Source of the DNA: Yponomeuta sedellus
Lineage: Eukaryota > Arthropoda > Insecta > Lepidoptera > Yponomeutidae
Assembly (NCBI GenBank): GCA_934045075.1
Contig: OW203732.1
Coordinates: 11,522,701 to 11,586,700 of the forward strand
Reading direction: 5' to 3'
Length of the DNA stretch: 64,000 nt
The position numbers and the translations under genes were made by a program. The notes under the pieces were generated by a model, which saw only the letters and a program-made list of their open reading frames with translations, was not told the DNA's origin and searched no databases. Positions within the stretch are counted from its first letter, which is position 1. Each line of letters begins with the position of its first letter. Below, piece after piece: positions 49,487 to 52,400 of this stretch.

Positions 49487-52400
49487 CTATTTAATCTTAA
49501 TCTTATGCAACTTCAGTTTGAAGCCTAGCATCTCTGACAGCACCCCAGACAACGCTGATAATATTACTACTTTTGTGATCGTGTATAAATAGTGATTGGC
49601 ACATAATCCCGAGATCCGGAATGGGGCATCCAACTCCTGCGAAAGAAGAAAAAACAAATATTAGACTGGGTAACCACAAATAAGCAGCGCGTTGGGTGAT
49701 AATTGTTTTTCACTTTTAAAATGCTTCGGCTTGCATTTAAAAGTATCTTTGTACAACCGCGTAGGTTTGTATTAAAGATCTAAACAAAGTTAGCAGTGAG
49801 TGTAATATAATGTACATATTGTTCGGAAATCTAGAAATACTATGAAAATGAAGAAATATAAACCATTATATTTCTTCAATGAATGAGCTAGGTCGTGCCA
49901 ACAACTATAATTATAGGTAGATTTGGTTTGTCTAAAACTAGGCAAAAGCTGAATGAAATAAAAATCATATGCACACCTATAGGCACAGGCGTAGATGGAG
50001 GAAGACGGGAGTGAGGCCACGATGCTCCCTTGCCCTAGCTAGACAAAAACGGTCAGCCGAAGTGATCGTCTCAGTTTGAGTGATGGTTGGTATAGATTAA
50101 TAATAATCTTCCGCACAATGCGATCACTTGTCTTGGTCCCAAACTAGGATACACTGTGCTATGGTAACCAGGCAACGATATCACAAACATCGAAATACAC
50201 CCAGATTGATGCCATGTGTACGGCGGCCCCCACTGGGAATCGAACCCACAACCTCCGTCATAATCAGACGTGGTATCAGTAGACCAACGAAGCAGTCAAG
50301 GCAGGCAGATTATGTTTTGTATTCTACCTACCTTTAGCAAGTCCGCGGCGAGCTTGAGGACATTATTAGCGACGGTGAGCTGCTCCTTGCTCTCGGGCCG
50401 CTGTTCGATGGCCAAGTGCAAGTTTATCTGCTCAGTCAAGATGGCGGACAGGCAGCCGCGGTACTTCTTGTTCACGTTGCCGCCCAGAGTGAGCAGGCGC
50501 AGAAGATATATGCCCAGACAGCAGCTCCATACAGTAGCCTCGAGAAGCCAGCCGCATTCCAGGGTTACCGTTTCCTGGGAATAGGGGAATAAGGTTGTAA
50601 CTAGCTGGGTACTTTGTTTATTTAGTTCACAAATGGAGGTATGACTTAGCTTTGTGACGGTTCAAACCTCTTCACACCATTTTTATTTCTTTTTCTATCT
50701 ATCATTTTCAAATATTTAAATTACGTCACACATTCTTCGATTTTCCTCATTTTTCATCATTACTACTTTACCCTTTGACCAGATCTGACTATTTTACCTG
50801 TTTCTCCGTTTTTTATCCAGTTTTCTGTTTTAAAATTACTACAAATATCTACAAATAAAACAACACCTGAAGTCGTCCCAGAGTTTATTATTATTATTTA
50901 TAAAGATACCCAACGTTACACTGGCGCCCCACGTTGGGCGCCAGTGTAACGTTGTATAACTTTTATAAATAATAATAAACTGGAACGACTTCATGTGTTG
51001 TTTTATTTGTAGATATTTGTAGTAATTTCAAAACAGAAAACTGGATAAAAAACGGAGAAACAGGTAAAATAGTCAGATCTGGTCAAAGGGTAAAATAGTA
51101 CCTAATGATGAAAAATGAGGGAAATCAAAGAATGTGTGACGTAATTTAAATATTTGAAAATGATAGATAGAAAAAGAAATAAAAATGGTATGAAGAGGTT
51201 TGCACCGTCACAGCTTTAATCTAAATACACAAGCTATTTAGGTACGAGTATTAACAGCATGCAATGAAACTTACACGATGTGTTCCTTATCTTCCCGTAG
51301 AAGCGGAGACTCTATTCGTCAGTACGAATGAAGTTTACTATTGGTGAGTGCAACTCGAAATAGCAAAACATCAGCTATTTTGTTTTGATACCTACTTTTG
51401 TGTACCGACTACCTACTACTTAAATATTAGGGCAGTTGATATTATTTTCGCGATTTCGAAGTTGTCCTTATAATAAGTCGTTTGTAGGGAGTTGAACAAC
51501 TTACTCGACTGATTCTACGACCCTCCAAGGTTTGGAATAAATCTTTTACAGAGATATGCTCCCATTTGTACCTACATGTACCTAATTCCTTTCAATAGTA
51601 ACATTTTACGTGAGCAATCCAGCTGAAATAATTTTCGGGATCTCAGCTTCATCAAAATACGAGGGTGGGACCACATACTGTCCGATCCGTGCACGTTGTA
51701 AAGGTTAATTTACTCTCCGGTCGACAATACATCAACCTTAAACACGTGGACTTAGTTAAGTTCTGGGCGACTTAGCAAGAAAAATATAACTGTTTGATCA
51801 GATGTAGTTAATATCTAGGTACCTAACTACTTACTCTCAGCAAATGTGCGCTGACGCAAGCGAGGAGGATCAACGTCAGCATGAAGGCAGCTGACACGAT
51901 GACGTCTACTGACCGCTGCGGCCCGCGACGCTGATAGAAAAAAATAAGAATAACGTTACCATGGTTGTTACTCAATAAATCCTAGGTGGCAGAAAGGATG
52001 TGGACGAAATTTGGCATCCAAACCGAATTCTGCATTTACTCATACGAATCTACGCGAACATTGTGTCATAATTTGATAAGGTCCATTTTTATTGGCAGAA
52101 GTAGTCGGTCGGTCGGTCGGTCGTCGTCGACGAGGGGACCTAACGCGCTTTACGGTTACCTTAAATAATATGGAAAAATATAAGCATAGGCGAACCTGAA
52201 ATATCCGCACTTAGCCTCATAGTGGGTCCATTGCACGTAGCAGGTTAATTAACAATTCGGACACTAGAAACATCAGCAAATCTTACTTTCCTGACTGCCT
52301 CGTTGGTCTGACGGTTCCACGACTGATTACCACGTTTGGGGTTGTGGGTTCGATACTGTAGGCCGCCGTACATTTATATAAATGGCCCCAGTCTGGGTGT

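Follow-up and report, generated by a model that had tools for sequence, protein, structure and literature searches.

Solo LTRs and TRIM elements are short insertions made of LTRs, or of LTRs and a small interior. Ty1 and Ty3 resemble the elements described here in two respects, according to the part of PMC5371799 available to us: the tRNA copy does not pass into normal copies, and strong-stop DNA carrying the tRNA copy accumulates as a by-product. HIV-1 proviruses with asymmetric LTRs have been attributed to strand transfer between two genomes packaged together (PMC9278108, available part). No LTR-PBS-LTR palindrome is described in the available parts of these two papers or of PMC8775094, PMC1084362, PMC12789967 and PMC7472051, and no description of one was found in the literature searched, with subscription papers mostly outside its scope.

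Our analysis concerned a palindrome of this kind in the genome of Yponomeuta sedellus, within a stretch of 64,000 nt (contig OW203732.1, positions 11,522,701 to 11,586,700) that is referred to as a whole as the window. We consider it probable, at roughly 0.78, that the palindrome is the inserted product of strong-stop DNAs that were mutually primed through their tRNA-copied ends.

Results

The palindrome as a whole spans 560 bases (50653–51212): a 24-bp centre separates two LTRs of 268 bp each in inverted orientation, and GCTT flanks the unit at either end. The left LTR arm is located at 50653–50920 on the plus strand and the right arm at 50945–51212 on the minus strand (51212–50945 in its own direction), and both have their TG (U3) end outward. 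They are 92.6% identical in a 272-column alignment including indels, and 21 alignment columns, gaps included, differ between them. The centre (50921–50944) reads C-TGGCGCCCAACGTGGGGC-GCCAG on the minus strand, that is, a spacer C, then TGGC, GCCC, AACGTG and GGGC, and then GCCAG. The 18 nt at 50926–50943 (minus strand) are a copy of the 3′ end of tRNA-Lys, which makes a full primer binding site (PBS), and they are identical to the PBS given for tRNA-Lys1,2 in the available part of PMC8775094. GCCAG itself (50921–50925, minus strand) is the complement of the spacer C plus TGGC and would represent the first five bases of self-complementary priming. Viewed on the PBS strand, the PBS is borne by the right arm, which the left arm continues in inverted form, as a tail, up to the U3 end.

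The target-site duplication GCTT (AAGC in the other orientation) was found at 50649–50652 and 51213–51216 by sequence reading and a script check. Trimming the ends by one base would allow an alternative 6-bp reading of the flanks, AGCTTT, but the 4-bp reading is favoured because sister insertions with TG...CA ends have 4-bp duplications. An earlier note, made from the sequence alone, had described the two 268-bp LTRs facing each other with their U3 ends outward, the perfect 18-nt tRNA-Lys site in a 24-bp centre on the minus strand, and GCTT on both sides; coordinates, sequence and duplication all agreed with our reading. An ordinary provirus has direct LTRs, whereas here they are inverted and the internal region is absent; a solo LTR is single, whereas here there are two inverted LTRs and a PBS.

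The window also contains a tRNA-Ser(gga)-like gene at 38689–38964, most of which is repeated inverted at 38892–38964 (97%). Two open frames belong to LINE-type elements, one at 33549–36674 on the plus strand with reverse transcriptase and endonuclease domains and one at 13701–15251 on the minus strand with a reverse transcriptase domain, and a long open frame at 53301–54218 (plus strand) has mariner-type transposase domains.

A search of the assembly (657.5 Mb, 57 contigs) with the LTR arm gave at least 41 matches, both window arms included, and the further copies were 91–95% identical to it. Several of the relatives fetched have direct LTRs, a polypurine tract (PPT) before the 3′ LTR and 4-bp duplications, and a script located 10 loci with CCCGGGTAR followed by a direct 3′ LTR, each of which has a 4-bp duplication. 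The open reading frames of one relative, L046, matched RVT_1 (3.7e-36), RT_RNaseH_2 (3.2e-32), RVP (2.8e-4) and Retrotrans_gag (7.8e-4, below the curated cut-off), in a stretch whose reading ends inside the RNase H frame. Judged by these Pfam domains, the parent of the window arms is an LTR retrotransposon, of the superfamily that we take, partly on the same matches, to be Ty3/gypsy. The direct-LTR relatives with their 4-bp duplications bear out the idea that the arms come from a real LTR-retrotransposon family, and no relative with a different primer tRNA was seen among the copies fetched. Two other arrangements were observed in this family. L004 is a TRIM-like copy, whose two LTRs enclose about 148 bp and whose PBS match is about 10 nt long. 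L043 has two identical family LTRs (2337–2689 and 3650–4000; LTR distance 0) that are inverted with their PPT sides inward, the inverted repeat being 97.7% over 354 bp; its right LTR is followed by a PBS and a tail, which makes a second, different inverted arrangement.

The exact 24-bp centre was present at 50 places in the genome and the reversed pattern, used as a control, at none, which excludes chance. The window palindrome is one of these 50 and not a single oddity. The genome-wide search for LTR-PBS-LTR junctions with an identical centre, which the earlier note had proposed, gave these 50 places, the window palindrome included, and seven of them are complete palindromes. A family LTR adjoins the centre in 49 of the 50, the exception being L073. 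The centres of the pairs L070/L071 and L073/L074 lie 5–40 kb apart and have flanks that are at least partly common, and these are probably local duplications rather than independent insertions.

The 18-mer alone had 417 exact genome copies (control, 0). GCCA follows in 77 of them, where a given random 4-mer would be expected in about 1.6. In these 77 sites the spacer base and the base after GCCA were C/G (50), T/A (8), A/T (3), G/C (1) or non-complementary (15); complementary bases were therefore found in 62, while 20,000 shuffles gave a mean of 42.2 and a maximum of 54. The recurrent GCCA and the complementarity of the spacer support the view, also taken in the earlier note, that the centre is a tRNA-Lys copy followed by a self-primed extension. 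The modified base 58 (m1A58) stops the copying of a tRNA. Only 4 of the 417 copies continue along the tRNA beyond nt 18, and this rarity fits a stop at that base.

Twelve complementary sites with a non-C spacer were fetched, and their exact tail, spacer base included, was at most 3 nt in five and at least 7 nt in five. Long inverted LTR stretches adjoin the centre at L084, L085 and L090, with arms that are unlike or rearranged. At L091, which has no similarity to the LTR family, arms 98% alike over 136 nt surround the same tRNA copy; its centre is rearranged, and its arms are at best putative LTRs.

At L021, L033 and L067 the LTR is followed by a centre whose 6-nt loop is flipped (CACGTT), as expected from a heteroduplex centre resolved to the other strand. 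If the two central mismatches had been repaired independently, loops reading AACGTT or CACGTG would be expected; neither occurs at the places listed with an exact centre (50) or with one mismatch (19). Viral contigs were also scanned for the centre, pieces of the LTR and the LTR-PBS junction, with no match. The 18-mer had one viral match, in a GC-rich contig with no LTR similarity, which was taken as chance.

On contigs C1–C4, 93 sites had a family LTR end followed by TGGCGCCC, after three reverse reads of tails had been dropped; the full 18 nt were present in 25 of them and a shorter site in 68. We read 12 of the 93, chosen for their position at the head of the list rather than at random. In five of the six shorter sites read, all on C1, TGGCGCCCAACG was followed by a common leader, which corresponds to a 12-nt PBS; the sixth, L099, had a 16-nt site and a different continuation. 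L005 had an 11-nt site and a related leader. None of the six sites with the full 18 nt and no GCCA had the common leader: L092 and L096 continue as inverted LTR from other annealing points, L095 runs almost directly into a U5 end, L097 has its own tRNA part copied back, and the continuations of L093 and L094 match no recognised product. Since the sampled ordinary copies have a site of about 12 nt, the full 18-mer marks a retained tRNA copy, templated by the tRNA and derived from plus-strand strong-stop DNA, and not an ordinary primer site. Of what had been expected for the parent, the tRNA-Lys primer was retained, and the length was not, as the site in the sampled ordinary copies is about 12 nt instead of 18.

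All 50 centre places were read; the flanks covered 1.5 kb at 30 places, with an extension to 4 kb at 20 of these, and 310 bp at the remaining 20. Apart from the complete palindromes, the centre is followed by exact inverted-LTR tails of 1–66 nt. These match the LTR end of their own element, private variants included (L018, L028, L035 and L075). The summed exact run of the tails was 554, against a mean of 275 and a maximum of 411 for shuffled tails, and none of 5000 shuffles reached 554, in a comparison that covered 47 of the 50 loci (the flipped L021, L033 and L067 being dropped) and ignored the relatedness of copies. Many tails then enter one common internal sequence at varied points, from its start to the inside of the 3′ LTR. 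Clean joints between tail and internal sequence have overlaps of 0–6 bases; other loci have filler or no clear joint.

The script assigned the right ends of the 50 loci to a direct 3′ LTR in 10, to a short piece of U5 and then the duplication in five (L024, L027, L028, L032 and L063) and to a complete palindrome in seven. The other 28 gave no right end, and five of them no LTR start. The chance expectation for CA plus the duplication within 140 nt is about 1–2 of 45 loci, and L030 and the second match of L063 are such chance occurrences. A conserved functional hairpin was rejected as an explanation of the short tails, whose lengths vary. An inherited hairpin was also argued against by the tails tracking the LTR variants of each element and by siblings that have an identical interior and different tails.

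Discussion

Seven of the 50 exact-centre places are complete palindromes, and six of these have 4-bp target duplications: GCTT in the window element (L025), ACTA in L016, AACT in L023, AGCG in L062, ATAC in L072 and ATGT in L079. In the six, the arms end exactly at TG (U3) next to the duplication, as those of inserted strong-stop DNA would. At the seventh (L022/L049) a script check of the ends found no target duplication. The centre of L016 is doubled and rearranged, and L072 has a deletion in one arm. The duplications support the claim, made before for the window element alone, that the unit was inserted through two U3 ends.

An LTR tree was built from 75 of 76 copies, one divergent row being dropped; its bootstrap was not settled. 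The left arm of L050 is 1.1% from L030 and the right arm 3.1% from L058 and L068, and the two are 6.7% apart and fall into different supported clades (98/92 and 99/93). The arms of L079 are 11.7% apart and lie in different groups. Keeping the arms together was rejected for both (L050, AU p 0.019; L079, AU p 0.013; uncorrected for seven palindromes) and not rejected for the window element (0.345), L049 (0.394), L062 (0.548) or L044 (0.547), while the arms of L072 group together with weak support. By this tree the arms of L050 and L079 are derived from different LTR subfamilies. Of the arms of the window element, the right one is placed in a group with L009 (98/90). In two columns of U5 the left arm has CC, which is common to 9 and 11 other copies, and the right arm has TA, which is common to 61 and 59. 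As these states are shared with other copies, part of the divergence between the window arms seems to be older than the insertion; the other differences, private to one arm, look as if they arose later. This suggests two different templates for the window element.

The proposed course of events is as follows. Plus-strand synthesis, as is standard for LTR elements, would copy U3-R-U5 and 18 nt of the tRNA-Lys primer. Judged from the copies, the ordinary site fits the tRNA over about 12 nt, so that the last 6 nt of this product, TGGGGC, mismatch the normal acceptor. The sequence of the free 3′ end, GCCCAACGTGGGGC, is close to self-complementary, and two such ends might pair over 12 of 14 bases and prime each on the other. 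Extension would copy the LTR backwards, as the products indicate. Often it would stop after 1–66 nt and jump to the minus strand of the element, giving a 5′-deleted element with an inverted tail; sometimes it would proceed to the LTR end and give a linear duplex with two U3 ends, which, to judge from the TG...CA ends and the 4-bp duplications, would be inserted by integrase. Here we infer, rather than observe, the action of integrase, the strong-stop DNA and the stop on the tRNA. Genomic RNA does not begin at U3 and strong-stop DNA does, which excludes genomic RNA as the template of complete palindromes. Finished cDNA also starts at U3 and could be the second template; for the short tails, RNA templates or priming within one molecule are possible.

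The earlier note had attributed the palindrome to a single strong-stop DNA that snapped back (GGGC on GCCC, around a 6-nt loop) and copied its own LTR, the hairpin being opened later and integrated via both U3 ends. Self-complementary priming of strong-stop DNA remains from that proposal; the involvement of one molecule does not, as a two-molecule version fits better. The junction is exactly as snap-back predicts, the arms of L044 differ by only 0.4% (99.6% identity), and tails tend to match their own LTR, which holds for most of the longer short-tail loci and speaks against mutual priming, as do the missing duplication of L022/L049, the 28 loci that gave no right end and the five tails of at most 3 nt next to non-C spacers. 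However, folding with DNA parameters gave the snap-back hairpin a weak stability of −3.0 kcal/mol and the dimer of two 18-mers, with both 3′ ends paired, a far greater one of −15.0 kcal/mol (the value of the co-folding program for a structure that it found itself). The best single fold of the end with three LTR-side bases is another hairpin (−3.6 kcal/mol), and the tRNA-Lys3 site pairs elsewhere, with its 3′ ends left free. A hairpin, moreover, has one free end and requires an extra opening step, whereas two strong-stop DNAs in a duplex offer a U3 end on either side and are directly integrable. Because of these pairing energies, the two free U3 ends and the different subfamilies of the L050 and L079 arms, we favour strong-stop DNAs that primed each other and regard the snap-back of one molecule as rather unlikely.

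A DNA rearrangement after insertion, in which two opposed proviruses or an inverted duplication were joined at the PBS, appears very improbable. Such events typically involve inverted repeats and microhomology, and L049 has no matching duplication, but matching 4-bp duplications stand at the outer TG ends of six of the seven palindromes and the identical junction recurs at 50 places. The 50 places and the matching duplications also make an assembly artefact unlikely. An ordinary family of foldback or Ginger-like DNA transposons, with long terminal inverted repeats that resemble LTRs by chance, would share the TG...CA ends, the long inverted repeats and the 4-bp duplication, but is hardly credible, as copies of the arms occur as direct LTRs with a PPT and an internal region, L046, a relative with coding capacity, gave matches to gag, protease, reverse transcriptase and RNase H, and only 7 of the 50 centres are complete inverted pairs. 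Such a family had been named as what would refute the earlier note; among the relatives fetched, a subset of the genome copies, which include direct-LTR elements, none has inverted repeats as its natural termini.

We regard the probable product of mutually primed strong-stop DNAs as a new class among the aberrant products of reverse transcription, arising from a known kind of element. We are also inclined, with somewhat less confidence, to a general rule: in LTR retrotransposons with a short PBS, strong-stop DNAs with the full tRNA copy, sometimes from different co-packaged RNAs, would prime each other, integrase would accept the duplex with two U3 ends, and palindromes and tail-bearing deletion elements would recur wherever tRNA-Lys1,2 primes. 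Which families should have palindromes can be predicted from their primer tRNA, so that this is testable in other genomes. If true, these loci are a genomic record of a normally invisible intermediate and show a possible fate, in an element with a short PBS, of strong-stop DNA that bears a tRNA copy, which would not be merely a dead end. They suggest natural insertion via two U3 ends and joint reverse transcription of RNAs from different subfamilies, and they would explain a class of 5′-deleted elements. Annotators are warned that a locus of this kind may be neither a DNA transposon nor an assembly error.

Comparison with known systems

Solo LTRs and TRIM elements are likewise short insertions made of LTRs, and L004 has such a layout; their LTRs, however, are single or direct, whereas those of the palindrome flank a tRNA copy in inverted orientation. 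The HIV-1 case is similar in that plus-strand strong-stop DNA of one genome copy is used with another and altered proviruses result, and it differs in that the part of PMC9278108 available to us describes no inverted LTR, retained self-primed extension or pair of U3 ends. In Ty3, 12 tRNA nucleotides are copied (PMC5371799, available part), against 18 here. In the Ty1 and Ty3 particles, as far as that part of the source goes, tRNA-bearing strong-stop DNA is a dead end, whereas here its self-priming products appear to have been inserted in the genome.
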